A DNA stretch of 64,000 bases from Nitrospina sp. (GTDB taxonomy: Bacteria > Nitrospinota > Nitrospinia > Nitrospinales > VA-1), in NCBI GenBank assembly GCA_018653085.1, contig JABIAY010000053.1:190561-254560 (forward strand), read 5' to 3'. A model generated the notes under the pieces. It was not told the DNA's origin. It saw nothing but the letters and a program-made list of their open reading frames with translations, and made no database searches. Of the stretch, positions 3,485 through 56,639 are shown in pieces (within the stretch, counting starts at the first letter, position 1; each line of letters starts with the position of its first letter). The position numbers and the translations under genes are program-made.

Positions 3485-3811
3485 TTGGTTAGCCACCGGC
3501 GAGCCTCCCCTGCCAAGGGGCTAGCCCACTCCCGCGGGAGGGAACATAGCAATTACTTTTTAAGCCGAGATAACTCTCTACTCGCCAGAAAAATTGCTGG
3601 TCTATGCAAACCCCCTTTATCCCCCTTATCAGGGGGAATTATTAAAGTATTGCGCTTGATGACTTGGTCTGCTTGACGGGCAATGCAGTGCTGGCCCCAC
3701 GCCTAGTGGCCCCTTAGCAGGGGAGGCAGAGAGCAAGGGCTTTTTGAGCCGAGATAACTCTCTGCTCGCCAAATAAAGCGACGGCACATTGGCCCCACGC
3801 CTAGTGGGGCT
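3485..3811. repeat. dispersed palindromic repeat cluster (several modules in tandem)
   Basis: Fills the gap between phoB and the DUF1566 gene. Modules include AGCCGAGATAACTCTCT followed by RCTCGCCA (twice), a CCCCCTTATCAGGGGGAA hairpin (about 3630-3647), CCCCTTAGCAGGGGAGGCAG, and GGCCCCACGCCTAGTGG at 3693-3709 and again at 3791-3807. The two copies are exactly 98 bp apart, indicating tandem elements. The last copy abuts the stop codon of the DUF1566 gene. Confidence 0.85.
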
Positions 3812-4238
3812 AGGGGTCGCGGCGGACAAGGCGTACTGCGTGGGAAATAGTTTTGTCGTCCTTGCCGTACCAATAGGCGCATCCGTTCATATAGAACAGG
3901 ATTTGTGCTTCTTCGCCACGGATGGATGAGGTCCAGGTGCAGTTCGCCGCGCCAGGGGGAAATATGGAGTCGAGATGAATATCGCCACCCTTAAAATCTT
4001 TATTCAACATGTCCTTGTCATAAATGGATGAGGCCTCATGAATGGTCGGGATGCGCCAGTCATCATATCCCCCCACTTTTTCCTTGTTCATTTTTTTCAG
4101 GTATTCTTCCGTTTCTGCGTAAGACACCTCTTTATCCATATCCAACCACGAGTCGTTTGCCATCCAGGTGACGCTGGTCAGCGAATCGTAAATAGTTCCA
4201 TCGTCTCTTTTCAAAAACCGTGATTTTTCGTTACCCAT
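3810..4238 (-). CDS. DUF1566 (Lcl C-terminal-like) domain protein
   Basis: 142 residues. The sequence shows the DUF1566 signature: VTWMANDSW near the N-terminus, a central DDWRIPTIHEASSIYD (DWRLPT-type motif) and a terminal HAVRLVR. Usually this domain is found in secreted or surface proteins of unknown function; here there is no signal peptide. Start ATG 4238 has ACGGAGAA upstream. The stop TAG (3810-3812) is immediately followed by a CCCCACTAGGCGTGGGG repeat, so the 3' end coincides with an element boundary. The molecular function is unknown. Confidence 0.7.
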   Translation of the reverse strand: MGNEKSRFLKRDDGTIYDSLTSVTWMANDSWLDMDKEVSYAETEEYLKKMNKEKVGGYDDWRIPTIHEASSIYDKDMLNKDFKGGDIHLDSIFPPGAANCTWTSSIRGEEAQILFYMNGCAYWYGKDDKTISHAVRLVRRDP

Positions 4239-4625
4239 TCTATTCTCCGTAATGACAGGGTTTCTCTTTCCGCTATCGGAAACCCAATATCTTCAAGTTA
4301 ATCGTAGGGTCCCATTTTAACCGATGCATTGGCGATTTCAAATATCGTTTAGGTGCAAGAGAAAGTGGGCTTTTCGGGTTAGTTTTGATGGGAACTGGAA
4401 TTCGATAAAACAAAAAACCTCATAACGTAGAGCTGTCAGTGTGTGTGAATAAAATGCGATTATTTTTGGTTAGACTATTGGAATTGTGTGGCAATTTGCG
4501 GACCTGGGAAATTTTCGGAAACCCTGCTGTTATATGGGAGGTATTGAGCTTACAATATTTGTGCATTAAATACGCAGTGTTTGGTGTAGTGGATTACAAC
4601 ACGCCTCCTGAGCAACAGGGTCACC
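4239..4625. other. intergenic region between divergent genes
   Basis: AT-rich spacer between the DUF1566 gene and the sensor kinase. It contains a hairpin at 4258-4285 (GGGTTTC/GAAACCC outer arms, TTTCCG-CTAT-CGGAAA inner arms) just upstream of the DUF1566 start. I see no convincing coding sequence or RNA gene in the rest. Confidence 0.5.
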
Positions 4626-7040
4626 ATGTCTCTTTTCTCAACATTCAGGAACATAGTCATCATTATAGTTAGCCTGTTTTGTCTGGTCAGTTTTTCTGTT
4701 TACCGGATGAATATGCTTGAAAAAGCACATGGCCGTGCATTGTCTCAGCAGGCAGAATTGAGGGAGTTGGGAGAGAAGCTGGCGTGGGGTTCTGATTATT
4801 TAACAGATGAAATTCGCCGTCACGTACAGTTTGGAGACATGTCTCATTATTACAATTTCTGGAATGAGGTGAATGTCAACCGGTCGCGGGACAAAGCTGT
4901 TGAAAGACTGAAGGAGCTTAAAGTTTTGCCGAGCGACTTGGCCTACATTGAAGAAGCCAAAGGGTACTCTGACCACTTGATCGAGACAGAAGTAAAGGCC
5001 ATGGAAGCAGTTGAAAGCAATGATTTGGACGAAGCAAGAAGGCTGGTGTTTGGCGAATATTACGGTGAGCAGAAGGGCCTGATCCTGGGAGATATTAAAA
5101 AGTTTCAGGGTACTGTTAATGCCCGAGCGCAAGCCCTTACAGAACATTTCCATAATGAAATGTCATTCTTCATGATGCTCACAAACCTTCTGCTGTTGGT
5201 TTCCGGAGTGCTTGTTTTATTTCTTGTGTACAGTATTGGTATCAGGCGCCTTCTCAATCCGCTTAAATATTTAACCCATATTATGCAGGAACTTGTGCAG
5301 GGTAATCTGGAGATCCCGATTCAGGTATCAGGCAGAAGAGACGAGATGTCGGAGATGGGTCAAGCGCTACAGGTTTTTAAAGAAAATGCCATCGAGAAAC
5401 AAACTGCTGAGCTCGAACTTTTCAGGGTCAACAGGTCCAGAAGTCTTATCCTGGAATCAGTGGGGGAGGGAATTTATGGTCTGGGTCTGGATGGACAGGT
5501 AGCCTTTCTCAATCCCATGGCGGAAAAACTCCTGGGCTATTCTCTGGAAGAATTAAAAGGTAAACCCGCCCATTTATTAATCCACCATTCCAAGTCGGAT
5601 GGAAGACCTTACCCTATTGACGAATGTCCTGTTTATTGAGCATTTTGTGATGGTGAAATATACAACGAGAAGAACGAAATATACTGGAGAAAAGATGGTT
5701 CAAGCTTTCCTGTTGAATACACCAGTACACCTATCTATGAAGAAGGCAAACTGGCAGGTGCCGTTGTGGTCTTCAAGGATATTTCTGAACGCAAATATGC
5801 TGATGATGTGCTCAAGCAGATTGTTGTGGGGACCTCGGCCGCGATCGGGGATGATTTTTTAAAAGCACTTGTCAAAAACCTGGCGACATCTCTCCGTGTT
5901 AAATACGCTTTTATTGGAGAACTGACTGGAGGTAAACCGGAAAAAGTTGTGACCCGCGCAGTTTGGGCAAATGGAGCACTCGCTGAAAACTTTGAGTATG
6001 GTTTGAAGGACACTCCCTGTGAAAACGTGGTGAGTAATAAGGCTTGCTACTACCCAAACGATGTTCAAAATCTTTTTCCGAAAGACCTGTTATTGGTGGA
6101 GATGGGAGTGGAAAGCTATCTGGGTGTGCCATTGTATGACAATGAAAAAAAGGGTCGGGGACTCTTGGTGGTTCTGCATGACGCGGAAATACCAGAAAGC
6201 ATAGACCCTCAAGCCATTATGCAGGTGTTTGCCAACCGAATTGAAGCCGAACTGGAACGCCACGATGCACAGATGAAACTTGATAAGCACCTCAACGATC
6301 TTGAAAGACTGGTCGGGGAACGTACCGCCGCTTTGGAGACAAGTAATCAGAACCTCAGCGAGTTTGCCTTCATAGCTTCCCATGATCTGCAGGAACCACT
6401 CCGTAAAGTGATACTGTTTGGAGATAGGCTGGGGGAGCTAAATCGGGGTTTAGACGAGAAAAGCCGTGACTATATCAATCGAATGCAGGGGGCCACGGTT
6501 CGAATGCAGGATTTAATTGATGACTTGCTACTGTTTTCAAAGTTAACAACCTACAGTTCGCCATTTGTAAAAATTGACTGCAACAAAATTATCGAAGGTA
6601 CTTTGTCAGACCTTGAGGCCAGGGTAAACGAGTCCCGGGGAACAATAAATGTAGATAAATTGCCGGACATAGAGGCCGACTCGTTTCAAATGCGCCAGTT
6701 GTTTCAGAACCTGATCGGCAATGCCCTCAAATACCGTAAAGAAGATGTTGATCCTGTGATCAACATTTCTGCCCAGCCCGATGGAAATGGAAATGTGGTA
6801 ATAAAAATCGAGGATAACGGTATCGGGTTTGATGAAAAATATAAGGATAAAATTTTCCAACTCTTCCAGCGGTTGCATGGGAAAAATGCCTACGGAGGAA
6901 CCGGTATGGGGCTCGCGATCTGCAAAAAAATAGTCGAACACCATAGCGGAAGCATGACTGTCGACAGCACCCCAGGTGTGGGCACAGCCTTTCAAGTCAG
7001 CCTGCCTAAAAAGCATCCTCTATCTGAGAGGACAGGTTAG
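4626..7040 (+). pseudogene. membrane sensor histidine kinase interrupted by an in-frame UGA
   Basis: One 804-codon frame reads from ATG 4626 to TAG 7038-7040, broken only by TGA at 5637-5639 (codon 338). Before it: TM1 (about 8-26), a periplasmic helical region, TM2 (about 180-203), HAMP and the first half of a PAS domain ending DGRPYPIDECPVY. After it, in the same frame, PAS resumes (AFCDGEIYNEKNEIYWRKDGSSFPVEY), then GAF (about 390-550), HisKA with ASHDLQEPL, and HATPase (ED.GIGF, GGTGMGLAI). A downstream GTG at 5766 could begin a 424-residue soluble GAF-kinase, but it has no clear ribosome site. The residue expected at the stop is not conserved enough to guess. Nonsense mutation, sequence error or readthrough are all possible. 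Confidence 0.75.
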
Positions 7041-7065
7041 AAAGTGTAGTTAAAGAGTCAACGGC

Positions 7066-7209
7066 ACCTCAAGGGCTTAACGAGCTTTGCCCTATTGGCC
7101 CTCCGCCGAGCCCCTTAGCAGGGGAGGCAGATAGCAAGGGCTCTTTGCGCCGAGACCACTCTTTGCCTGCCAGAAAAAGCGATGGCATATTGGCCCCACG
7201 CCTAGTGGT
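7066..7209. repeat. dispersed palindromic repeat cluster
   Basis: Contains CCCCTTAGCAGGGGAGGCAG, GCAAGGGCTCTTTGCGCCGAG, the TGCCAGAAAAAGCGATGGCA segment and CCCCACGCCTAGTGG. The last module overlaps the 3' end of the nitrilase gene and provides its TAG stop codon (7202-7204, minus strand). Confidence 0.85.
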
Positions 7210-15578: not shown

Positions 15579-15956
15579 TTATTGTTCCACTTCCATCAGT
15601 TTTTTGCGGATGTAATGCACCACTGCACGAATTTCCTCTGTGGTTAGCCGCGACTCCCAAGGCATCATGGCGGTGCCCTTCCTCCCTTTGGTGACGGATT
15701 GGATCATCCGTTCTTCTGTCAGTTCCTTTTTTGATTTCTTTGCGGTGAAATTTTTCGGGGGTGGATTCAGTACGTTGGACGCGAAGGTTTTTCCATCGCC
15801 TTTATCCCCATGACAGGCTTTGCAATGTTTGTAGAAAATATCTCTTCCTGTTTCCAAATCGGCAGGATTGGCTGATGCGTGGGAGGCCCAGCTGATGAGG
15901 GCTAATAATAGAAAAACCAGGCTTTGTTTTTTTTGTTTGCTTGTAATGTAAATCAC
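15579..15956 (-). CDS. periplasmic mono-haem cytochrome c
   Basis: 125 residues. The signal peptide (1-29) is cleaved after SHASA, followed by a class I cytochrome c fold with CKACH (Cys45, Cys48, His49), a PPPKNF loop and distal Met in GTAMMPW. It resembles small c6/c555-type electron carriers of the periplasm. The only sensible start is GTG 15956, which lies inside the AAATCACCCC end of a palindromic repeat; the GGGGCTGGG Shine-Dalgarno is also repeat sequence. The gene converges with the thiamine-binding protein gene. Redox partner unknown. Confidence 0.85.
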   Translation of the reverse strand: MIYITSKQKKQSLVFLLLALISWASHASANPADLETGRDIFYKHCKACHGDKGDGKTFASNVLNPPPKNFTAKKSKKELTEERMIQSVTKGRKGTAMMPWESRLTTEEIRAVVHYIRKKLMEVEQ

Positions 15957-16137
15957 CCCAGCCCCTCTTTGGTAAAGAGGGGTCCATTAAAACCCCCTCA
16001 GTCCCCCTTATCAGGGGGAAGATATTAGAGTATTACCCCTCCGGGGCACGAGAGCTTAGGAGGAATATCACGTGCGCTTGAGTGCTCAGCCTGCCTTATG
16101 GGCAATGCAGTGCGGGCCCCACGCCCAGTGGTTAGCG
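15950..16137. repeat. dispersed palindromic repeat cluster
   Basis: Begins with the AAATCACCCCAGCCCCTCTT module (compare 24804 and 27494), then a CCCCCTTATCAGGGGGAAGA hairpin, a TTACCCCTCCGGGGCACG hairpin, GGGCAATGCAGTG and GGCCCCACGCCCAGTGG. The left edge supplies the start region of the cytochrome c gene and the right edge meets the glnD stop codon. Confidence 0.85.
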
Positions 16138-24803: not shown

Positions 24804-24879
24804 AAATCACCCCAGCCCCTCTTTGTAAAAGAGGGGTCCATTGAAGCTCCCCCTTCCACGAAGGGGGTTGGGGGGATTT
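24804..24879. repeat. 76-bp element with terminal inverted repeats
   Basis: Begins AAATCACCCCAGCCCC and ends GGGGTTGGGGGGATTT, imperfect terminal inverted repeats of about 16 bp. Inside are the hairpins CCCCTCTT..AAGAGGGG and CTCCCCCTT..AAGGGGG. Nearly identical in length and sequence to 27494-27569. It lies between arsC and the phosphoesterase gene. Confidence 0.85.
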
Positions 24880-25375: not shown

Positions 25376-25562
25376 TTGGGGGGATGAGGCAAGGGTTCGT
25401 CAAGCCGAGATAACACTTTGTCAGCTAGGTAAAGTCATTGCCAGTTGCCCCTGCGGCTAGCCCCTTAGCAGGGGAGGCAACTGGGCAAGGGCTTGATTGC
25501 GCCGAGAAAACTCTTTGTTCGCCAAATAAAGCGACGGCACGCGGGCCCCACGCCTAGTGGTT
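25376..25562. repeat. dispersed palindromic repeat cluster upstream of lexA
   Basis: Two tandem units: CAAGCCGAGATAACACTTTG plus CCCCTTAGCAGGGGAGGCAA, then TTGCGCCGAGAAAACTCTTT, GTTCGCCAAATAAAGCGACGG and CCCCACGCCTAGTGG. It ends about 60 bp before the lexA start. Apart from the lexA promoter I see nothing else in the arsC-lexA gap. Confidence 0.85.
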
Positions 25563-26231: not shown

Positions 26232-27485
26232 ATGAACTCTCGCAAAATTTTACATGTGGATATGGATGCGTTTTTCGTGTCGGTGGAAGAGGTGCTCGAC
26301 CCCTCCCTGAAAGGCAAGCCGGTAATAGTTGGCGGCCGGGCCATGCCCGGTGAGCGCGAGGCAATAGCTCCTCAAGCCGAGAGCACGCTTGCTCGCCAGA
26401 AAAAATTATTGCCCTCTGCCTCCCCCGTTAGGGGGGTGGTTGCCGCTGCGTCTTACGCAGTAAGGCGGTATGGCGTTCATTCCGCCATGCCGATAGCGCA
26501 AGCGAAACGGCTTTGTCCGCACGCTATTTTTCTTAGTGGTTCGCAAAGGCGGTACAGCGAATACTCGGTGAGAGTGTTTGAAATTTTAAAACGCTATTCT
26601 CCTTTGGTGGAACCGATGTCACTCGATGAGGCGTTTGTCGATTTGACCGGATGCGAACGACTGCACGGTCCGGTTCTGAAGGCAGGGGAAAAAATCCGTA
26701 ACGAGATTCGTGAGGAACTGGGACTGAACGCTTCTGTTGGTATCGCTTCCAACAAACTGCTGGCAAAGATCGCCTCGGCTTATTGCAAACCTAACGGAAT
26801 GCTGTGGATCGCTCCGGGAATGGAGCAAAGATTTCTGGCGCCGCTTCCTATTCGACGTATTCCGGGAATCGGGCCGAAGGGCGAGGCCGAACTAAGGCGC
26901 ATGGGTATCAAGTCTGTAGGCGACCTTGCCCGCCTGCCGCTTGAATCGCTGGCTTGTGGCAAATGGGGCGCATCGCTTTATCGCAAGGCCCGGGGAATCA
27001 GCGAGAGTCCGGTCATCGGCGAAACCGTAGACCCGCGTTCCATCAGCCGCGAGACGACATTGGAGACGGACTCGGCAGACCCGTTATTTCTCGAGTCCAC
27101 ACTCAGTTACCTGACCGAAAAAGTGGCGGGTCAGCTAAGAGAAAATAAATTGTTTGCTCGTACGGTAACGTTGAAACTGCGGTACTCTGATTTTAAGACG
27201 GTGACCCGATCGAAAACACTGGAGATGCCAACGGCGGAAGATCATACACTATTGAAAACCGGCGCGGGATTGTTCCGCAAGTTGTTCACACATCGGACGC
27301 GGGTGCGTCTCATCGGTATCACGTTCACTTCGCTGACAGCAACCTCTGACAGGCAGGAAGATTTGTTTGATCATAAAGGCGGGCAATGTTGGGACAACCT
27401 GTACCAGGGCATCGACCGCATCCGTCATAAATATGGGTTCCGTTCCATTTTGCGTGCACGCAGTAGCCAGCGTGATGCTAACTGA
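26232..27485 (+). CDS. dinB: DNA polymerase IV with a repeat-encoded internal insertion
   Basis: 417 residues. Y-family polymerase: HVDMDAFFVSVEE (Asp10, Asp12), SLDEAFVDLTGCERL, the helix-hairpin-helix RIPGIGPKGEAELRRMG, and a little-finger domain to the end. It performs error-prone lesion bypass in the SOS response. Residues 43-67 have no counterpart in ordinary DinB, where the GG loop runs directly into RGVV..A.Y..R..GV. They are encoded by 75 nt (26358-26432) closely matching the intergenic palindromic repeats, and the frame is kept. The insertion lies in the fingers/palm loop after the second strand, so activity may survive. It follows lexA closely. Confidence 0.93.
   Translation: MNSRKILHVDMDAFFVSVEEVLDPSLKGKPVIVGGRAMPGEREAIAPQAESTLARQKKLLPSASPVRGVVAAASYAVRRYGVHSAMPIAQAKRLCPHAIFLSGSQRRYSEYSVRVFEILKRYSPLVEPMSLDEAFVDLTGCERLHGPVLKAGEKIRNEIREELGLNASVGIASNKLLAKIASAYCKPNGMLWIAPGMEQRFLAPLPIRRIPGIGPKGEAELRRMGIKSVGDLARLPLESLACGKWGASLYRKARGISESPVIGETVDPRSISRETTLETDSADPLFLESTLSYLTEKVAGQLRENKLFARTVTLKLRYSDFKTVTRSKTLEMPTAEDHTLLKTGAGLFRKLFTHRTRVRLIGITFTSLTATSDRQEDLFDHKGGQCWDNLYQGIDRIRHKYGFRSILRARSSQRDAN
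26358..26432 (+). repeat. palindromic repeat inserted in frame within dinB
   Basis: 75 nt (25 codons) containing GCAATAGCTCCTCAAGCCGAG, GCTCGCCAGAAAAA and CTCTGCCTCCCCCGTTAGGG. These modules recur in gaps at 3541-3600, 7123-7176 and 39733-39800. GGCAATA/TATTGCC close an internal hairpin. Removing the 75 nt restores an uninterrupted GERGVVAAASY segment. Confidence 0.85.
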
Positions 27486-27493
27486 GGGGTTGT

Positions 27494-27569
27494 AAATCAC
27501 CCCAGCCCCTCTTTGAAAAAGAGGGGTCCATTGAAGCTCCCCCTTCTACGAAGGGGGTCGGGGGGATTT
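27494..27569. repeat. 76-bp element with terminal inverted repeats
   Basis: Same 76-bp length and almost the same sequence as 24804-24879: AAATCACCCCAGCCCC at the left end, GGGGTCGGGGGGATTT at the right end and two internal hairpins. Its right end overlaps the start codon and provides the purine-rich Shine-Dalgarno of the class V aminotransferase gene. Confidence 0.85.
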
Positions 27570-28707
27570 GACTTTGAATCTTGAAAAAATAAGACAAGAG
27601 TTTCCGGTGACCCGGGAGTTGACCTTTTTCGATCATGCCCGGGTGGCTCCTTTGCCCGAGCGGGTGCGCAAGGTCGTGACGGGATTTGTTGATGAGGCCA
27701 CCCGTTTTGGTACGGCCCATTACGAAACCTGGATGGCTGGGATCGAGCGGTCCCGGAAAAGTTTCGCCCGTCTCATCAACGCCGGAACGGATGAGGTGGC
27801 TTTCGTCAAAAATACTTCTGAAGGACTTTCCATTGTTGCTAACGGACTGGATTGGAAGTCTGGCGACAATGTGGTTATCCCTGACATCGAATTTCCTGCC
27901 AATGTTTACCCGTGGTGGAACTTAAAACGTCTGGGAGTGGAAACCCGCATGGTTCACGCCATCGAAGGGCGGGTGTTGTTTGACGACCTGGTCAAACAGG
28001 TGGACGCACGGACGCGACTCATTTCTGTCAGTTCTGTGGAATGCAATAGCGGCTTTCGCTTCGACCTCAATCGCATCGGTACGTTCTGCAAGGAAAAGGG
28101 CATCCTGTTTTGCGTCGATGCCATTCAAAGCCTGGGCCTCCTGCCGATGGATGTGAAACGCGACCATATCGATTTTCTCTCAGCCGATGGGCATAAGTGG
28201 ATGCTCAGTGTCGAAGGACTTGGCGGATTCTATATTTCCAAGGATGTCCTGGAAAAGGTGTATCCGGTAACGGTGGGATGGGGGAATATGGTCAACGCCG
28301 AAAATTTTATGGACTACGAATTTGCTTTCAGGCCGGGGGCGCGACGTTTCGAAGAAGGTTCGCCCAATACGATGAGCATCCACGCGTTTGGTTCTGCGCT
28401 GGATTTACTGATGGAAACAGGCATTGAAAATATCGAGCGGCGGGTGATGACTCTTGGTGACACGATTCTCGAACAACTCAACCGGCGCGGACTGAAAGTA
28501 TACAGCTCCACCCGAGAGGGAGAACGCTCCGGCAATATTGCTTTCATCATGAATCAGGATATCAGTCGTCTTGATAAATGGATGCTGGAGAACAAGGTTA
28601 AGCTCACCGTCCGCGATGGTCTTGTCCGCCTCTCCCCGCATTTTTATAATAGCGAGGACGAAATCCTTAAATTCTTCGACCTGTTAGATGGATATTCGAA
28701 AAAGTAG
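27568..28707 (+). CDS. class V aminotransferase (cysteine desulfurase / epimerase-like)
   Basis: 379 residues. Fold type I PLP enzyme: FFDHARVAPLP at the N-terminus, NTSEGLSIVANGL, the PLP-contacting DAIQSLGLLP and the Schiff-base Lys in SADGHKWMLSVEGLGGFY, with a GSPNTMSIHAFGSAL segment. It resembles the NifS/isopenicillin-N-epimerase-like group without a clear substrate; the loop expected to carry the active-site Cys of true desulfurases is not evident. The start is TTG 27568 or TTG 27574; either uses GGGGGGA from the adjoining palindromic element as ribosome site. No ATG is possible before residue 53. Confidence 0.82.
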   Translation: MTLNLEKIRQEFPVTRELTFFDHARVAPLPERVRKVVTGFVDEATRFGTAHYETWMAGIERSRKSFARLINAGTDEVAFVKNTSEGLSIVANGLDWKSGDNVVIPDIEFPANVYPWWNLKRLGVETRMVHAIEGRVLFDDLVKQVDARTRLISVSSVECNSGFRFDLNRIGTFCKEKGILFCVDAIQSLGLLPMDVKRDHIDFLSADGHKWMLSVEGLGGFYISKDVLEKVYPVTVGWGNMVNAENFMDYEFAFRPGARRFEEGSPNTMSIHAFGSALDLLMETGIENIERRVMTLGDTILEQLNRRGLKVYSSTREGERSGNIAFIMNQDISRLDKWMLENKVKLTVRDGLVRLSPHFYNSEDEILKFFDLLDGYSKK

Positions 28708-34041: not shown

Positions 34042-35064
34042 TTGAATCAGGTGTCCCGCATTAAAAGTTCTGCCCCCACCCGGATTGATTTAGCCGGGGG
34101 GACGCTGGACATCTGGCCTTTACATCTGTTTTTTGATAGCCCCCCCACCCTCAATGCGGCTATCGACCTTTATGCCACGGTAGAAATCCTTCCCCGAAAA
34201 GACAAGCGGATATTCTTAACCTCAGGCGATTTAGGTTTGAGCGACAACTTTCCCTCGCTGAGCGCGGTTCCAGACAATCATCCTTTGGAACTCATTGTGC
34301 GCACCTTGAAGTTCTATGCGCCAAAATCGGGACTGGAAATATCTACAGACTGCCAGGCTCCGCAAGGGTCGGGCATTGGTGGTTCCTCGGCTTTGAATAT
34401 TGCCTTGCACGGGGCACTCAACCGTTTTACCGGCCGGGGTTACCGCAAGGCTGAGATGATTGAAATCGCCAAAAATATTGAGACTCAGGTTATTAAGGTT
34501 CCCGCAGGATGTCAGGATTATTATCCGGCGATGTATGGAGGGGTGAGAAAAGTTTTGCCCGGAGTGCGAGGCACCGAAACTGAAAAGTTTGATATCAGCC
34601 CTGCCGAGCTGACCCGGCATTTTGTCCTGTGTTATACCGGCAAACCGAGAAACTCGGGGATCAATAACTGGGATGTGACGAAAAAGGCTGTGGATGGCAA
34701 CAAGACAGTGATCCGTCACCTGAAATCCATTCGGGATTGTGCCGTGGAAATGGAGCGGGCATTGAGCCGGGGACATCTTAAAAGTATAGCCCCGATTTTT
34801 GCCCGGGAATGGAAAGCCCGAAAACAGTTGGCTCCCAATATCAGTACTCCCCAGATGGATCGGTTGATGCGTGCCGCCCAGAAAAAGGGTGCATTGGCTG
34901 GCAAGGTCTGCGGTGCAGGTGGCGGCGGGTGCGTGGCCTTCATTGTGCCACCAGCCAAAAAACAATCCGTCATGGAAGAACTCACCTCAAAGGGCGGGCA
35001 AGTGCTCCCCTTCCGTTTCGTCTCCCGCCCACTGGCCGTGAAGGCAACTAGCAATAGCGATTAG
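34042..35064 (+). CDS. GHMP-family sugar kinase
   Basis: 340 residues from TTG 34042 (GTG 34051 also possible), 5 bp after mlaC. The GHMP motifs are present: APTRIDLAGGTLDIWPL, the ATP loop QGSGIGGSSALNIALHGAL, and C-terminal GALAGKVCGAGGGGCVAF. It resembles D-glycero-D-manno-heptose 7-phosphate kinase or L-fucose-type kinases, which feed surface-sugar nucleotide synthesis. The last residues (about ATSNSD) are encoded by ACTAGCAATAGCGATTAG, which belongs to the palindromic repeat that follows, so the stop codon is repeat-derived. Confidence 0.82.
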   Translation: MNQVSRIKSSAPTRIDLAGGTLDIWPLHLFFDSPPTLNAAIDLYATVEILPRKDKRIFLTSGDLGLSDNFPSLSAVPDNHPLELIVRTLKFYAPKSGLEISTDCQAPQGSGIGGSSALNIALHGALNRFTGRGYRKAEMIEIAKNIETQVIKVPAGCQDYYPAMYGGVRKVLPGVRGTETEKFDISPAELTRHFVLCYTGKPRNSGINNWDVTKKAVDGNKTVIRHLKSIRDCAVEMERALSRGHLKSIAPIFAREWKARKQLAPNISTPQMDRLMRAAQKKGALAGKVCGAGGGGCVAFIVPPAKKQSVMEELTSKGGQVLPFRFVSRPLAVKATSNSD

Positions 35065-35215
35065 AGCCGAGAAAACGTTTGCCGGCCTCATAAAGACATT
35101 GCAATTTACTAGCGGAGGTTCTCCGCCCACTCCGCGTGGGGCGAATTAGCAATAACTCTTCTGGCAAGCGATAGGTTAACTCGGCGCAATCAAGCTTTTG
35201 CTCGTTATCTTTCTT
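35045..35215. repeat. dispersed palindromic repeat cluster
   Basis: Modules ACTAGCAATAGCGATTAG, GCCGAGAAAACGTTTGCC, TACTAGCGGAGG, CCACTCCGCGTGGGG, TAGCAATAACTCTTCTGGC and TTAACTCGGCGC. It separates the convergent GHMP kinase and MMPL genes and overlaps the 3' end of the former. Confidence 0.75.
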
Positions 35216-38598: not shown

Positions 38599-39279
38599 AT
38601 GGGTTTTTCCCCGGCACTGAAATATTTAGTCATCGTTATCGTAACCCTGGGAATGGGTTTTTCGGTCTGGCTCCTGCCGCATGGCAAAAAGATAAAAGAA
38701 GAGTCCATCACCACTCCTATTGATGCCAAAGACGAAGCCGGTCGCTACCTGCAACAGGCATCGGAAGATTTTTTCTATCACGAGTTTGATCGGGCCATTG
38801 AGAATTATGGCAAGGCCATCACGGCTTTCGAAAAAGAAAACCAGTTGAAAAAGGCCGCGAAGGTTTACGAGTCCATCGGCGACCTGTATAAATTTCGTAG
38901 AAACCTTGAGGCCGCCAAGGCGCAATACATCCTGGCCATGAAATACCACCACAAAATCAATAATCCGCTAGGTGAAGCCCGGGCCATGAACCATGCTGGC
39001 GATTTGTTTATGGAACGGGGTGATAACGTTTCGGCGGGAGCCTGGTATAAAAAAGGGGTGGAACTGATTAAAGATATTCCCCCTCATCAGAATCAGGCAC
39101 TTTTGTTCGAGAATATGGGGCGTTTTTACTGGAAAACAGAAGAAAATATTCCCGAGGCCATCGTCTGGTATACCCGCACCCGCGATGTTTTTTCCGCCCT
39201 GGAAAACCAGATGGGCTACGACCATATGACCGCAGTGCTCAATAAACTCAGGGGCGGTCAGAACCTGAATACCCACTAG
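38599..39279 (+). CDS. membrane-anchored TPR protein
   Basis: 226 residues. An N-terminal TM segment (about 8-26) is followed by three to four tetratricopeptide repeats: FDRAIENYGKAITAFEKENQ, KVYESIGDLYKFRRNLEAAKAQYILAMKYH, EARAMNHAGDLFMERGDNVSAGAWYKKGVEL, and a fourth near PEAIVWYTRTRDVF. It probably scaffolds an inner-membrane complex, but no partner can be named. The stop TAG is part of CCACTAG at the edge of a repeat cluster. Confidence 0.75.
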   Translation: MGFSPALKYLVIVIVTLGMGFSVWLLPHGKKIKEESITTPIDAKDEAGRYLQQASEDFFYHEFDRAIENYGKAITAFEKENQLKKAAKVYESIGDLYKFRRNLEAAKAQYILAMKYHHKINNPLGEARAMNHAGDLFMERGDNVSAGAWYKKGVELIKDIPPHQNQALLFENMGRFYWKTEENIPEAIVWYTRTRDVFSALENQMGYDHMTAVLNKLRGGQNLNTH

Positions 39280-39500
39280 CCCTCCTAGGCGGAGGGCCAA
39301 TGTGCAATTGCCCTCTCTGGCGAGCAAAGAGTTATCTCGGCTGAAAGAGATCTTGCCAGTTCCCTCCCACGGGAGTGGGCTCGGCGGAGTGCCAGTGTGC
39401 CATCGCTTTATTTGGCGAGCAGAGAGTTATCTCGGCTTAACAAGTCATTGCTATACTCCCTCCCACGGGAGTGGGCTCGGCTTAACAGGTCATTTGTCTG
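39275..39500. repeat. dispersed palindromic repeat cluster
   Basis: Two full units in the same direction: GGCGAGCAAAGAGTTATCTC then CTCCCACGGGAGTGGGCTCG, and again CATCGCTTTATTTGGCGAGC, AGAGTTATCTCGGCTTAACA and CTCCCACGGGAGTGGGCTCG. A CCCTCCTAGGCGGAGGG hairpin marks the left edge at the TPR-protein stop codon. Confidence 0.85.
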
Positions 39501-39508
39501 GAGGAGGT

Positions 39509-39673
39509 ATGGTCGAAGATAAAAGAACGGTAGATAGAAGGAAAACGAACCGGAGAACTCAGGAAAGAAGAGATGTCGAGAGAAGGTTTGTTTTTTTCGA
39601 TCGATTATTTAAATTCCTGTTTGCCAGCATTGTTATTCTGATAGCTGTTTGGGTTTATATTTTTACCGAATAG
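39509..39673 (+). CDS. small single-TM protein with Arg-rich N-terminus
   Basis: 54 residues from ATG 39509, directly behind GAGGAGG. The N-terminus is strongly charged (VEDKRTVDRRKTNRRTQERRDVERR) and a single TM helix (about 30-51, LFKFLFASIVILIAVWVYIF) ends two residues before the stop. A longer reading is open upstream, but that part is translated repeat sequence and lacks a start signal. No family recognised. The topology is cytoplasmic N-tail, by the positive-inside rule. Confidence 0.6.
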   Translation: MVEDKRTVDRRKTNRRTQERRDVERRFVFFDRLFKFLFASIVILIAVWVYIFTE

Positions 39674-39723
39674 AAATTAATGATTTTTAAAAATAAAATT
39701 CCGGTATTTTTTTGCATCTTTTT

Positions 39724-39880
39724 GCAATGTGCAATAGCTCTGTTTGGCGAGCAAAGAGTTGTCTCGGCTGAAAAAGCTATTGCTCTCTTCCTCCCCTACG
39801 GGATATCTCTCTTCACTTGCCTTCATGCCTCGAAGGGGTACTAAGGGGCCACCAGGCGTGGGGATCAATGCCGGGGATTT
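39724..39880. repeat. dispersed palindromic repeat cluster
   Basis: Modules GCAATAGCTCTGTTTGGCGA, AGAGTTGTCTCGGCTG, GCTATTGCTCTC, a GATATCTCTCTTCACTTGCC stretch, CCTCGAAGGGGTACT and CCACCAGGCGTGGGG. Its first half is the closest intergenic relative of the segment inserted in dinB. Confidence 0.8.
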
Positions 39881-39888
39881 AAGGAGGG

Positions 39889-40158
39889 CTAGATTTTGCC
39901 AGCCTTATCGCGCTGATCTCTTTTCCTGTCCAGGAGAAGCATTTTTTTTACTTGTTGTCTGGTGTATTCTAATTCTTTGGCCAGTTTCCAGGTTTGCCAG
40001 ACACAATCTGCGTAAGGTTGTGTTCCCTCTATATTCCCGGATCCGGCACAGTTGGGGCCATACAGTTGATTTGCTTCGGGACCATTTTGAGCAACCTGTA
40101 GCCCGGAGCACCCGGATAACAGAACCAAAAACCCGAAAATGATACACCCTTTTTTCAT
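39889..40158 (-). CDS. small lipoprotein
   Basis: 89 residues. Signal peptide with lipobox LLSGC (Cys17). The mature part has two more Cys (GPNCAGSGN and ADCVWQTW) and a basic C-terminal helix LAKELEYTRQQVKKMLLLDRKRDQRDK. It probably sits in the outer membrane. No known family recognised. The Cys pair could form a disulfide in the periplasm. It is flanked by repeats downstream and a 388-bp gap upstream. Confidence 0.65.
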   Translation of the reverse strand: MKKGCIIFGFLVLLSGCSGLQVAQNGPEANQLYGPNCAGSGNIEGTQPYADCVWQTWKLAKELEYTRQQVKKMLLLDRKRDQRDKAGKI

Positions 40159-40546
40159 AACTAAAACTCTCCACTTCTCAAAGGTAGGGTCTGTCCCGAA
40201 CGCACATTACGTTCACACGAATATGTACCGAATAGCCCAAGCAGTCAATCACCCCATTGGGGGGGGGTAAGGGTGACAACTGGGGAAATTTCATACAGTT
40301 TGTGCACATTTTTGTAAATCAAACCCCATCCTCGCCCAACCTTATTCCCTTCTTTTTTCTCAGGTCTAAAAATATACGATTTGTTTTCAATAGTTTAAAT
40401 GTTCCTCCCTTGCAGGGTGTCCTCCGTTGGTATGCAAATTGCTATTTAACAGTTCTATGGAGGCCCGCAAACTTTTCGAAGAGGGCACTTCAAGCGGATG
40501 ACCCGCCCCAGGTTTGGAAGTTTAAAATCGTTACGCAGGTGAAGGT
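40159..40546. other. gene-free spacer
   Basis: 388 bp between divergent genes. It includes a decayed palindromic element (TCAATCACCCCATTGGGG...AAGGGTGAC, about 40244-40279). The rest is AT-rich; I see no gene or structured RNA. Confidence 0.45.
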
Positions 40547-41005
40547 ATGAAAGTAAATATGAAGATGTTGCTTGAAGAAGATTTAGATTGGTTTGTAGAG
40601 CAAATGCAGAAAGTCCGGGCCTTTTCGGTCCTTTCCCATAAGGAGCTGAAGCACGTTGTTTCACAAATGAGGAGTTTCCATTTCAGGGCCGGGACTACGA
40701 TTGTGAGTCAGGGTGAACAGGCGAATTTATTTTTTATAGTTCATGAGGGCGAAGTCGAAGTATCCGTGAAGAAATTTTTTTTCGGGGAAAGACAGGTTGC
40801 AATCCTAAACCCTGGAGACTTTTTTGGTGAAAGTGCCCTGGTCTCGGATTCCAAGCGAAACGCTACCGTCACAGCAAAGACAGACACGTCCTGTTTTGTT
40901 CTGCTCAAACCCAGTTTTAACTTCATGCTGAAACAAAACCCGCTTTTCAAGCAAAACATGAAGGTCGTCTTCTCCAGACGAAAACTACAACTAAAAAACG
41001 CCTAA
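40547..41005 (+). CDS. cyclic-nucleotide-binding domain protein
   Basis: 152 residues, essentially one cNMP-binding domain: FRAGTTIVSQGEQANLFFIVHEGEVEVS and the phosphate-binding cassette PGDFFGESALVSDSKRNATVTAKTD with the key Glu and Arg. There is no helix-turn-helix or enzymatic domain. It may be a regulatory subunit acting by protein contact. A short N-terminal helix (WFVEQMQKVRAFSVLSHKELKHVV) precedes the domain. ATG 40547 lies behind GGTGAAGG. Ligand (cAMP, cGMP or none) unknown. Confidence 0.82.
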   Translation: MKVNMKMLLEEDLDWFVEQMQKVRAFSVLSHKELKHVVSQMRSFHFRAGTTIVSQGEQANLFFIVHEGEVEVSVKKFFFGERQVAILNPGDFFGESALVSDSKRNATVTAKTDTSCFVLLKPSFNFMLKQNPLFKQNMKVVFSRRKLQLKNA

Positions 41006-41007
41006 CC

Positions 41008-41330
41008 GGCTAGCCGCCGGGGGCAACTAGCAATAACCCGTTTGGCTAACAAGAAACTATCTCGGCTTAACAAGTCATTGCTATACTCCCTCCCACGGGA
41101 GTGGGCTGGGCGTGGGGCCAGCGTGCACGTGATATTCTTCCTTAAACTTCGTGCCCCGAAGGGGTAATTGCCCGTCAAACAAGCTACGTCATCAAGCGCA
41201 CGTGATACTCTTCCTCAACTTTCGTGCCCCGCAGGGGTAATACTTTAATATCTTCCCCCTGACAAGGGGGCTAGGGGGTTGCCTTGGTCGTCATTGCGGC
41301 ACAGCAATGACAAATACAAAAAACTCCCCC
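41008..41330. repeat. dispersed palindromic repeat cluster (largest, about 320 bp)
   Basis: Carries CAACTAGCAATAACCCGTTT, ACTATCTCGGCTTAACAAGT, CCCTCCCACGGGAGTGGG, two GTGATAYTCTTCCT...CGTGCCCCG(A/C)(A/G)GGGGTAAT units, a CCCCCTGACAAGGGGG hairpin and GTCATTGC-ggcaca-GCAATGAC. No coding capacity. Confidence 0.85.
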
Positions 41331-48782: not shown

Positions 48783-51203
48783 TTATTGCGAAACTTTTTT
48801 ATGTGTCTGGGCCAGGGAAATACCCATAATGAAATAAAGCAACATGACAACCTCTGAGTCGTAGAAATTTGTCTCAAACAATCCCCCTGCCAGAAAACCC
48901 ATCACCGCCGCTACGGAACCCATGATCAAGGCTCTGGAATTATCATTGACGAGTTGTTGCGACCATTTTTTATACATAGTCAGGAGATAGGCTACCCAGA
49001 TTGAGAGCCAGGCCCCCAATCCCAGGATTCCCATGTCGACCAGCAATTGAAATATATTACTGTGCAACCCTCGGTATCGTGCAACATATCCTGAAGGATC
49101 TGGATATTGAGAATGAACCAAATCTACGCATTTAAAACCACAACCTGTAATGGGGTAGTCCTTAAAAATTTCCCAGCCTCCTTGCCAGAGATAGAGTCTG
49201 GCCTGCAGGGTCCAGTCTTTTAAATCTATCAGTGAGAACAAACGGTCTTTGACGCTTTCTGGAGAAAATAGTAGAAGCCCTACCATTATTGCAGGGATGG
49301 CTAGAAGGTATTTTTTGTTCCAGAAAATAGTCAATACTACTATTCCAACGAGAAAACCCAACCAGGCCTGTCGGGTTAAAGTCAGCAATAAACAAAACGC
49401 AATAAGCCCCACGGCACCGACCACCCAAACCTCTTTAGCTTTGTTAAAAAGGACTCTGCCGAGGGCAAAGAGTCCGACCAGCATCAGTAATCCCGCAAAG
49501 GTCATATAAACACTCATTGTCCCGGAGACCCTGGTTTCCAGGCCCACTGCAGTGGTCCATGCCTGAGAGAAACCAAACAGGGAGGCCACGACTCCTGCGG
49601 CGATCAGGAGTTTTATAAGCAAGTCCTTCTGTCTTTCATCTTCCACGGTATTTGCAACCCAGAAGAACACTGCAAACTGAAGAATTTTTTTGAGAGGCTT
49701 GAGACTGGTGGCAAAGTCTACAGATGTGATAACCGCTAAAACACTGGCAAGGCAAAAACATAAAATAGGCAGACCTATAGCTGTGCCACGGATTTCTTTC
49801 CAGGATTTTGTCAGGTGGACCTTGAGTAACCAGGCAACCGTCCCAATGGAAAACGCAATCTGGGTGACGCTGATGGAAAACATGGAGAACGCGACAAACA
49901 TAAACAGAGAAAACTGAATCGCTTTATCCAGCCACAGAATACGATTTGTGTTTAAAAAACGCCCCAGGTCGAAGGGCGTCTCTGTGAACCTGTCTGCTTT
50001 TTTTATTTTGGCCAGAGAGAGTCCCATGACGAAATAAAGCAACATGACTATCTCTGAGTCGTAGAAATTTGTCTCGAAAAAACCTCCAACTAAAAAGCCA
50101 ACAACCACTGCCGAGGATCCCATCAGTATGCCCTTGGCACTATCTGAAGACGCTTCCTCAGCTAAAGCCTTCCAACGTTTAAAGATTTCCATGAAAAATG
50201 CCACCCAAATGGAAACCCATAGTCCCAGCCCTACAATTCCTGTGTCGATCAGTAGTTGAATTATATTACTGTGCATTCCCCGGAAAAACCCTACCCACCC
50301 TGAGGGATCCGGGTATTGGGTATGGATTGCATCCACACATTTAAAGCCACAACCTGTAATGGGGTAGTCCTTGAAAATTTCCCATCCCCCTTTCCAAAGG
50401 GACACCCTTGACTGGAAGGAATTTTCCTCTATATTTCCAAAGCTATGGATACGGTTTTTAACAGAGTCGGGAGCAAAAAATAAAAGACCTGTTAGCAACA
50501 ATGGCAGGAGCAAAAGATATTTTTTATTCCAGAAAAACAACAGAAATGCAGTTCCTACAAAAAAACCAAGCCAGGCTTGTCTCGTCAATGTCGCCAGCAG
50601 GCATAGGCCCATAATGCCTAAACTCCCCAGCACCCAATATTCTTTGGGTTTATGAAATAGACACCAACCCAAGGCCACCAAACTTGTAAGCATTAAAACC
50701 CCTGCAAAAGTCGCGCGATTGCTTCTTGTTCCAAGGATCCTGTGATTTTCAAGGAAATCCGCCTCCCAATAAGGGGAGAGCCCATACAATGCCGCAAGAA
50801 CTCCGGCAACAATTATCGTTCCAATTAATAAATCCCTTTGCTTTTCATCCGTGACCGTATTGACCGCCCAAAAGAACACGATAAATTGGAGCAGTTTTTT
50901 CAGGTGTGTAAAGCTGCTTTCAAAATCAACCGATGTCCCCACCGCCAAAAAACAGGCCAGGCAGAAGCACAGGATTGCAATGCCAACCCGTGTGCCCCGC
51001 ACTTCTTTCCAGCTTTGGGTCAGGTGAACTTTCCACAGCCAGGATATAGAGCCTATGGAAAATGCGATCTGGGTGACGCTGATGGAAAACATGGAGAAGG
51101 CAACGAACGTGAACAAAGAAAACTGAATCAGTTTGTCCAAGGCTGGAATTGCCGGGTGCGTTATGGATGAATTAGTTTCAGGCAAGAATTTCTCCGTTTG
51201 CAT
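48783..51203 (-). CDS. tandemly duplicated O-antigen ligase (Wzy_C) fusion
   Basis: 806 residues made of two homologous 403-residue halves. Both contain the segments FVAFSMFSISVTQIAFSIG, LTRQAWLGF, GGWEIFKDYPITGCGFKCVD, HSN(I)QLL(I/V)D.GI.GLG and ETNFYDSE.VMLLYF.MG. Each half alone looks like a complete O-antigen ligase/polymerase-type protein with about ten TM helices and the Wzy_C loop. Such enzymes transfer undecaprenyl-linked polysaccharide to lipid A core or polymerise it on the periplasmic face. DNA matches between the halves have a constant 1209-bp offset. A frame-preserving tandem duplication fused the copies without a stop between them. Neighbouring gmd, colD and wzx genes fit O-antigen assembly. 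Confidence 0.85.
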   Translation of the reverse strand: MQTEKFLPETNSSITHPAIPALDKLIQFSLFTFVAFSMFSISVTQIAFSIGSISWLWKVHLTQSWKEVRGTRVGIAILCFCLACFLAVGTSVDFESSFTHLKKLLQFIVFFWAVNTVTDEKQRDLLIGTIIVAGVLAALYGLSPYWEADFLENHRILGTRSNRATFAGVLMLTSLVALGWCLFHKPKEYWVLGSLGIMGLCLLATLTRQAWLGFFVGTAFLLFFWNKKYLLLLPLLLTGLLFFAPDSVKNRIHSFGNIEENSFQSRVSLWKGGWEIFKDYPITGCGFKCVDAIHTQYPDPSGWVGFFRGMHSNIIQLLIDTGIVGLGLWVSIWVAFFMEIFKRWKALAEEASSDSAKGILMGSSAVVVGFLVGGFFETNFYDSEIVMLLYFVMGLSLAKIKKADRFTETPFDLGRFLNTNRILWLDKAIQFSLFMFVAFSMFSISVTQIAFSIGTVAWLLKVHLTKSWKEIRGTAIGLPILCFCLASVLAVITSVDFATSLKPLKKILQFAVFFWVANTVEDERQKDLLIKLLIAAGVVASLFGFSQAWTTAVGLETRVSGTMSVYMTFAGLLMLVGLFALGRVLFNKAKEVWVVGAVGLIAFCLLLTLTRQAWLGFLVGIVVLTIFWNKKYLLAIPAIMVGLLLFSPESVKDRLFSLIDLKDWTLQARLYLWQGGWEIFKDYPITGCGFKCVDLVHSQYPDPSGYVARYRGLHSNIFQLLVDMGILGLGAWLSIWVAYLLTMYKKWSQQLVNDNSRALIMGSVAAVMGFLAGGLFETNFYDSEVVMLLYFIMGISLAQTHKKVSQ

Positions 51204-54511: not shown

Positions 54512-55588
54512 TTGAAAAAAGCTTTGATTACAGGGATTACGGGACAGGATGGGTCTTATCTGGCTGAGTTCCTCATGGAAAAAGGATATGAGGTTCACGG
54601 TCTGGTGCGGCGTTCCAGTAGTTTTAACCGAGGCCGTATTGAACACCTCCTGTTAAACCCACAAAACCCGCTGGGGAAAATCCGTTTGCATTATGGGGAT
54701 ATGACCGATACCCCAAGCCTGAGTCGGTTGTTGTCGGAAGTCCACCCTGACGAAGTGTACAACCTTGCGGCACAAAGCCATGTGGGAATTAGTTTTAATA
54801 CGCCTGAGTATACTGGGCAGGCGGATGCCATGGGCCCTCTCCGAATTCTGGACTCTATCAAGTCTACGGATTTACTGGATACCTGTCGGTTTTACCAGGC
54901 TTCGACCAGCGAACTATACGGTAAGGTGAAGGAGGCCTCCCAAAACGAGACCACGCCCTTTCATCCCCGCAGTCCATATGCAGTGGCAAAACTTTATGCT
55001 CACTGGATCACTATCAATTACCGGGAATCCTTCGGGTTGTATGCCCTCAACGGAATCATGTTCAACCATGAATCGCCACGGCGAGGTGAAAATTTTGTCA
55101 CCCGAAAGATCACCTTGTCACTGGCAAATATCCTTGCAGGCGAGCAGGAAAAGCTGAGTTTGGGAAACCTCAACTCAAAGCGCGACTGGGGTCACGCCAA
55201 GGACTATGTCGAAGGAATGTGGCTGGCTTTGCAGCAGGAGGAAGCGGAAGATTATGTGTTCGCAACGGGGATTCAGAAAAGCATCCGCGATTTTGTAATA
55301 GACGCGTTTGGCAGTTGTGGTTTCGATATTGAATGGCAGGGTGAAGGTCTTGAGGAAAAGGGAATTGATCGAAAATCAGGACGGGTTTTGATCGAAGTGG
55401 ACCCAAAATTTTTCCGTCCGGCGGAAGTGGATGTGCTTACTGGCGATGCCAGTAAGGCTCGTGAAAAGTTGGGATGGGAACCCCGAATTTCTTATAAGGA
55501 GCTTGTGCGCATCATGGTGAAAAGTGATCTTCTCTACAAAGGTCTGGACCCTGCCGAATTAATGACCCCCCAGGATGCCCAAGCCTGA
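54512..55588 (+). CDS. gmd: GDP-mannose 4,6-dehydratase
   Basis: 358 residues from TTG 54512 behind AGAGGGG. Extended [21 protein letters not shown], the arginine-rich [25 protein letters not shown], the [12 protein letters not shown] active site with Tyr/Lys, [16 protein letters not shown] and [15 protein letters not shown]. It makes GDP-4-keto-6-deoxy-D-mannose, the precursor of fucose, rhamnose, perosamine and colitose. A second gmd paralogue is convergent next to it (gap 43 bp). Confidence 0.95.
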
Positions 55589-55631
55589 CTCCTCCCATAA
55601 ACCGCTCTTCGATTATATAGCCTGACCCTTC

Positions 55632-56639
55632 TCAAGGTCTGGGATATCTTCTTAAATCTGCCTCAACCATATCGGCCATTAAACTGTCCACATCATACTT
55701 GTGATTCCACCCAAGCTCTGTTTTTGCTTTGGTGGAATCACCAGCCAGCAGACCAACTTCTGCTGGTCTCAGGTTGGACTTGTCGGTGGTCACGATAAGT
55801 TTGTCGTTTCTTTTGTCAAAGCATTCATCGTTTTTCCAATACCCGGGTATTGATAGGTACGCCAATGTCTTGTCAATAAACTGCCTAACGGTATGGACTT
55901 TTCCTGTTGCCAATACGTATTCTTGTGGTTGGTCCGCATTTAACATTAACTGCATTCCTTCAACAAAATCTTCGGCATGTCCCCAGTCCCTTTTGGCCTC
56001 TAAATTACCTAATACAATAGGCTGGCCTTCTCTCAACCATAACGCAATGCCTTTTGAAATTTTTCTGGTTACAAAGTTTTCCCCCCTCATCGGAGATTCA
56101 TGATTGAACAGAATGCCGCAACAGGCAAACATATCATATGCTTCTCGATAATTGATAGTGATCCAGTGAGCGTATAATTTTGCAACGGCATAGGGAGAAC
56201 ATGGGTGGAAGCTGGTTTGTTCTGATTGAGGTGCTTCTTGTGTCTTGCCGTATAGTTCGCTGCTAGAGGCCTGGTAAAATTTGATCCGTGGATTAACCTG
56301 CCTGATGCTTTCCAGTACTTTTAATGTGCCAAAGCCATCAACCAGCGTGGCAAGTTCGGGTTGCTCGAATGATAATGCGACAAATGATTGGGCCGCCAGG
56401 TTATAGACTTCATCCGGTTTTGTTTTTTCTATAGCTCTTCTGATATTTGCCTGGTCTACAACATCCAGCTCTACGTATTCAATGTCCCCTGTGATGCCCA
56501 TCTCATCCAGACGCCAATGTTTTGAGGATGTGCTCCTGCGTTGACCCCCGTAAACTTTATACCCTTTCTCCAGTAGCGATTTCGCCAGATAGCAACCATC
56601 CTGGCCGGTAATGCCTGTAACCAATGCTGTTTTGCTCAT
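55632..56639 (-). CDS. gmd: second GDP-mannose 4,6-dehydratase
   Basis: 335 residues. Same fold and motifs as the neighbour ([76 protein letters not shown]), but clearly a separate branch. It lies 7 bp behind colD on the same strand, so this copy probably feeds the 3-dehydratase, while the plus-strand copy could feed another sugar. Activity could extend to related 6-deoxy-keto sugars. Confidence 0.92.
   Translation of the reverse strand: MSKTALVTGITGQDGCYLAKSLLEKGYKVYGGQRRSTSSKHWRLDEMGITGDIEYVELDVVDQANIRRAIEKTKPDEVYNLAAQSFVALSFEQPELATLVDGFGTLKVLESIRQVNPRIKFYQASSSELYGKTQEAPQSEQTSFHPCSPYAVAKLYAHWITINYREAYDMFACCGILFNHESPMRGENFVTRKISKGIALWLREGQPIVLGNLEAKRDWGHAEDFVEGMQLMLNADQPQEYVLATGKVHTVRQFIDKTLAYLSIPGYWKNDECFDKRNDKLIVTTDKSNLRPAEVGLLAGDSTKAKTELGWNHKYDVDSLMADMVEADLRRYPRP

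Follow-up and report, generated by a model that had tools for sequence, protein, structure and literature searches.

A MITE-like repeat at the dinB-aat junction of a Nitrospina genome probably provides the Shine-Dalgarno-like sequence, but not the start position, of an aminotransferase gene

REP elements are linked to RAYT (Y1) transposases. Prokaryotic MITEs are described as short, non-coding, multicopy sequences with terminal inverted repeats, lying mostly between genes (PMC10969869; MITEAba12, PMC6382973), and for MITEAba12 it has been pointed out that start codons close to the element ends could permit fusions (PMC6382973). The review of prokaryotic MITEs, which treats sRNAs and in-frame fusions, has 0 matches to 'start codon' or 'Shine-Dalgarno'; it also describes the Rickettsia palindromic elements, whose insertion alters gene ends and which often lie in frame inside genes (PMC10969869). 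In the open-access papers searched we found nothing on the element reported here, or on repeats supplying Shine-Dalgarno (SD) sequences.

We analysed a 64-kb stretch of a Nitrospina MAG (C46:190561-254560), hereafter the window. An earlier note had drawn a 76-bp repeat directly before an aminotransferase gene. This repeat is real: BLAST against the window's own genome gives 42 matches, of which 15 span all 76 bases at an identity of at least 93%, and matches are present in 14 of the 16 genomes of the genus, the window's own counted. The features of the locus are as follows.

24804-24879, + strand: second full-length copy of the repeat within the window, flanked by genes for a metallophosphatase and a low-molecular-weight phosphatase.
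26232-27485, + strand: dinB / DNA polymerase IV gene (Pfam IMS, IMS_C), whose TGA stop at 27483-27485 abuts the element.
27486-27493, + strand: left arm beyond the 76-bp core, GGGGTTGT; consensus GGTTNT.
27494-27569, + strand: 76-bp repeat core, AAATCACCCC...GGGGGGATTT, with imperfect terminal inverted repeats and two internal hairpins.
27560-27566, + strand: GGGGGGA, Shine-Dalgarno-like by sequence, 7 nt before TTG 27574; predicted anti-SD pairing of the upstream stretch -10.1 kcal/mol.
27568-27570, + strand: TTG proposed as start in the earlier note and rejected here, one base after GGGGGGA and outside the orthologue start column.
27570-27575, + strand: right arm beyond the 76-bp core, GACTTT; consensus GNTTTT.
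27574-27576, + strand: TTG, the supported start codon; of the 12 congeneric orthologues, all start here, 8 with ATG and 4 with TTG.
27574-28707, + strand: class-V aminotransferase gene (aat), 377 aa (Pfam PF00266, E 7e-55).

The two ends of the core, AAATCACCCC and GGGGGGATTT, are complementary at 9 of 10 positions. Beyond the core, the left-flank columns -6 to -1 are conserved among the 15 full-length copies, while the 29 right ends with GGGGGGATTT continue with G at +1 (22/29), any base at +2 and T at +3 to +6 (22, 23, 24 and 24 of 29, respectively); in the window copy, +3 is C instead of the consensus T. As left ends thus run on as GGTTNT and right ends as GNTTTT, the aligned copies make the repeat unit ~90 bp or more, longer than drawn previously. 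The RNA of 27486-27576 is predicted to fold at -41.6 kcal/mol (z -2.65), and 88 nt with this stable structure separate the dinB stop from the aat start.

Judged from its sequence, the element is a non-autonomous, palindromic, MITE-like repeat. Like MITEs, it is short, non-coding and flanked by terminal inverted repeats, with many dispersed copies lying mostly between genes; unlike them, it has a mosaic, variable interior, and no cognate transposase was found in a search limited to Y1_Tnp. The flanks of the 15 full copies consist of the fixed arms, with no evident target-site duplication. The palindromic structure, the intergenic position and the many copies are shared with REP elements, but the unit is longer and the window's own genome (94.9% complete) gave no match to Y1_Tnp (PF01797), controls being positive in 5/14; a RAYT-type REP identity was rejected on this missing match. 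As with the Rickettsia palindromic elements, insertion changes gene ends, but the present element is intergenic and adds no confirmed codon, perhaps only the TT of a start. Across the window Rfam gave 0 matches at the gathering score. The sole terminator-like match in 27300-27800 falls inside a gene (shuffles average 0.8), and a terminator at the element was rejected. So was an element-derived dinB stop, although some left arms read TGAGAGGTT: TGA stands at the equivalent place in the element-free genome G002, and also in G010.

A search of 15 congeners for aat gave 12 with the gene and 3 without a match. In each of these 12 the column of TTG 27574 holds a start codon, namely ATG in G001, G003, G004, G007, G009, G013, G014 and G015 and TTG in G002, G010, G011 and G012; the gene of G014 is broken further in, with its start still readable. 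In G001, G004 and G014 an in-frame stop immediately precedes the orthologous ATG, and in the window an in-frame TGA at 27532-27534 excludes any start farther upstream in the aat frame. Because the column is constant in 12/12 congeners, element-free genomes among them, the comparison of orthologues indicates that the start position of aat is ancestral, older than the insertion of the repeat. That orthologues keep this start without the repeat, an outcome which the earlier note itself had named as a refutation, contradicts the start at the element edge that the note proposed. As for the codon itself, T27574 and T27575 fall on the terminal T-run of the element and G27576 outside it; the TT (+5, +6) may thus be element sequence, with G27576 the sole base contributed by the gene.

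The other half of the earlier claim, that GGGGGGA is the ribosome site, fares better, as it is the strongest Shine-Dalgarno-like stretch near the aat start, and its spacing and predicted pairing make it plausible. Using a 16S tail, GGATCACCTCCTTT, read from the congener G002, we predicted an anti-SD pairing of -9.3 kcal/mol in the sister genome G012, which has the same right end as the window's genome (G000, -10.1 kcal/mol), against -3.0, -2.9, -3.6 and -2.7 kcal/mol in G013, G009, G003 and G015, where this element end is not beside aat. The gene baseline covers 33 window genes (median -4.4 kcal/mol); 2000 random stretches have a median of -2.9 kcal/mol, with 2.7% reaching -9. Predicted pairing is intermediate in G004, G002 and G011 (-5.9 to -6.4 kcal/mol) and strong in G010, G007, G014 and G001 (-8.9 to -11.5 kcal/mol). 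These last four have G-rich leaders not proven to derive from the element, so that a native G-rich leader instead of an element-derived one is possible. A search with the repeat-end pattern for leaders of the G014/G001/G007/G004 type gave extra matches in G014, and none in G001, G007 or G004. Against use of the site, GGGGGGA is mostly paired in predicted RNA folds, with unpaired probabilities all at or below 0.45, although the predicted cost of opening the aat start region is 8.6 kcal/mol, within a range of 3.3 to 12.7 across 12 genomes. The element probably provides the SD-like sequence of aat. The element, its junction, the start column, the spacing and the predicted pairing energies are direct results, whereas we infer that ribosomes use the G-run and that this SD is useful rather than incidental.

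At the same dinB-aat junction G012 also carries a repeat, the order there being TGA, GGCGTTGT, AAATCACC ... GGGGGGATTT, AGTT, TTG. Both ends of the element are kept, and between them lies another repeat (TACCCC...GGGGCA kind) that occurs in the window as well and is nested inside an element copy of the window's own genome (L128). A tree of dinB plus aat, in which several dinB pieces are partial and from which G011 is omitted, places G000 and G012 together at a weak node (40.5/70); the single-protein tree was unresolved. Both trees omit G014 on account of its broken gene. We infer that the insertion is common to G000 and G012 by descent.

The cytochrome c gene had been proposed, together with aat, as a pair of genes whose translation begins at an element edge.

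15579-15956, - strand: cytochrome c gene; GTG 15956 is its sole in-frame ATG/GTG/TTG start.
15950-15997, + strand: partial element copy, whose left end contains GTG 15956 (- strand).

An AGAGGGG lies five bases upstream of this GTG, likewise within the element, and the orthologues start at varying nearby places; a start at the element edge is here possible from the sequence and is not contradicted. As a pattern, the proposal did not hold. We surveyed 86 distinct GGGG[GT]GATTT ends in the loci examined (the genome holds 129 GGGGNGATTT matches), with genes called by a custom codon-usage script, not a standard gene finder, and with four distances set manually: those of L001, L011 and L022 follow the orthologues, and for L020 its ATG was taken. 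Thirty-three ends point towards a predicted start at -80 to +200, and one, at the aat locus, has a start 1-9 nt beyond the core, i.e. in SD range; an even spread of the 22 starts that lie within 60 nt would put 3.3 there. Two candidates with a GTG inside the left end of the element were disproved, as the orthologues of RibD (L022) start at residue 19 and those of an ADP-ribosylglycohydrolase (L011) at residue 13. By this survey the element has no general role, and aat is one isolated case, at roughly the frequency that chance predicts.

The explanation that we favour, with a probability of about 0.65, is that of a MITE-like insertion after the dinB stop, the ancestral aat start being kept and the G-run now serving as SD-like sequence. 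The repeat would have inserted right after the dinB stop in the common ancestor of G000 and G012, moving the aat start codon away from dinB; aat would still start in the ancestral column, at what is now TTG 27574, and the G-run of the right end, by chance 7 nt upstream, would replace the weak or coupled initiation of the element-free relatives. The view of the earlier note, with the element supplying both the SD and a start codon at TTG 27568, appears very improbable. This TTG does share its first two bases with the end of the 76-bp core, and no in-frame start lies between it and TGA 27532, but a single nucleotide separates it from GGGGGGA, 12/12 congeneric orthologues start 6 nt downstream, and three of them have a stop in the codon just before.

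Two other readings compete with the favoured one. The insertion may have rewritten the start, the TTTT of the element replacing the AT of an ancestral ATG, so that element DNA would make up the SD and two of the three bases of the start codon. The TT of TTG 27574 at +5 and +6 of the consensus (24/29 ends with T at each), followed by a gene-derived G, agrees with this, as do the AGTTTT then G of G012 and the ATG in 8/12 congeners. We nevertheless think it possible, if rather unlikely: TTG is also found in G002 and G011, which have no clear element end, and in G010, with a possible remnant, so that TTG could predate the insertion; in addition, the window copy departs from the consensus at +3, and there is no clean empty site to fix the element edge. 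It is unlikely, too, that the G-run is irrelevant, with translation of aat either re-initiating after dinB or proceeding independently of an SD, and the hairpin element doing no more than separate the cistrons. Many genes here lack a strong SD, as the window median indicates, therefore the SD may not matter; the element-free congeners manage at about -3 kcal/mol, and the G-run is mostly paired in silico. Against this, 88 nt with stable structure now lie between the dinB stop and the aat start, and the G-run is intact in G012 although the interior has changed. One might further speculate that the entire initiation region of aat was exchanged in a single insertion, the element giving the SD and the TT of the start (ATG to TT|G) and uncoupling the gene from dinB, with the right end then selected in the sister lineage while another repeat replaced the interior; this we regard as doubtful.

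If the G-run is used, the locus is a worked case in which a repeat equips a gene with a ribosome site that its relatives lack, and in the sister genome a useful element end would persist while the rest changes. Because the start position of aat is older than the repeat, the case is a modest accident of insertion, not a new start mechanism, and according to the survey such coincidences of element and start occur at about the chance rate. The survey further shows that annotation goes astray when an ORF is called from its first start inside these repeats, as in RibD and the ADP-ribosylglycohydrolase.

Several other arrangements of repeats were seen. At L004:1501-1576 the core is inverted relative to the outer arms, as are single ends in L016, L026 and L115, with a GNTTTT-type arm after a GGGGTGATTT end or an AGAACC arm after GGGGGGATTT; their sequences suggest inversion of the core at the terminal inverted repeats. 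A second palindromic repeat, of the TACCCC..GGGGCAYGAAGG type, is nested in or replaces element interiors (L128:1440-1605; L062 near 2938; window 16034, 41166 on the - strand, and 42033), and such mosaic copies share their ends, the L128 example being ~156 bp. Another family, of the GCCGAGATAACTCTCTGCTCGCCA type, occurs as several copies in the window at 3525-7208, 25462-25560, 35029-35201 and 39273-41270, and sometimes adjoins the 76-bp element elsewhere in the genome. Finally, window positions 48798-50419 and 54890-56279 hold repeats 147-242 nt long, with 71-73% similarity and a spacing of ~1.2 kb, together with an inverted pair of 221 nt; these probably sit within related genes.
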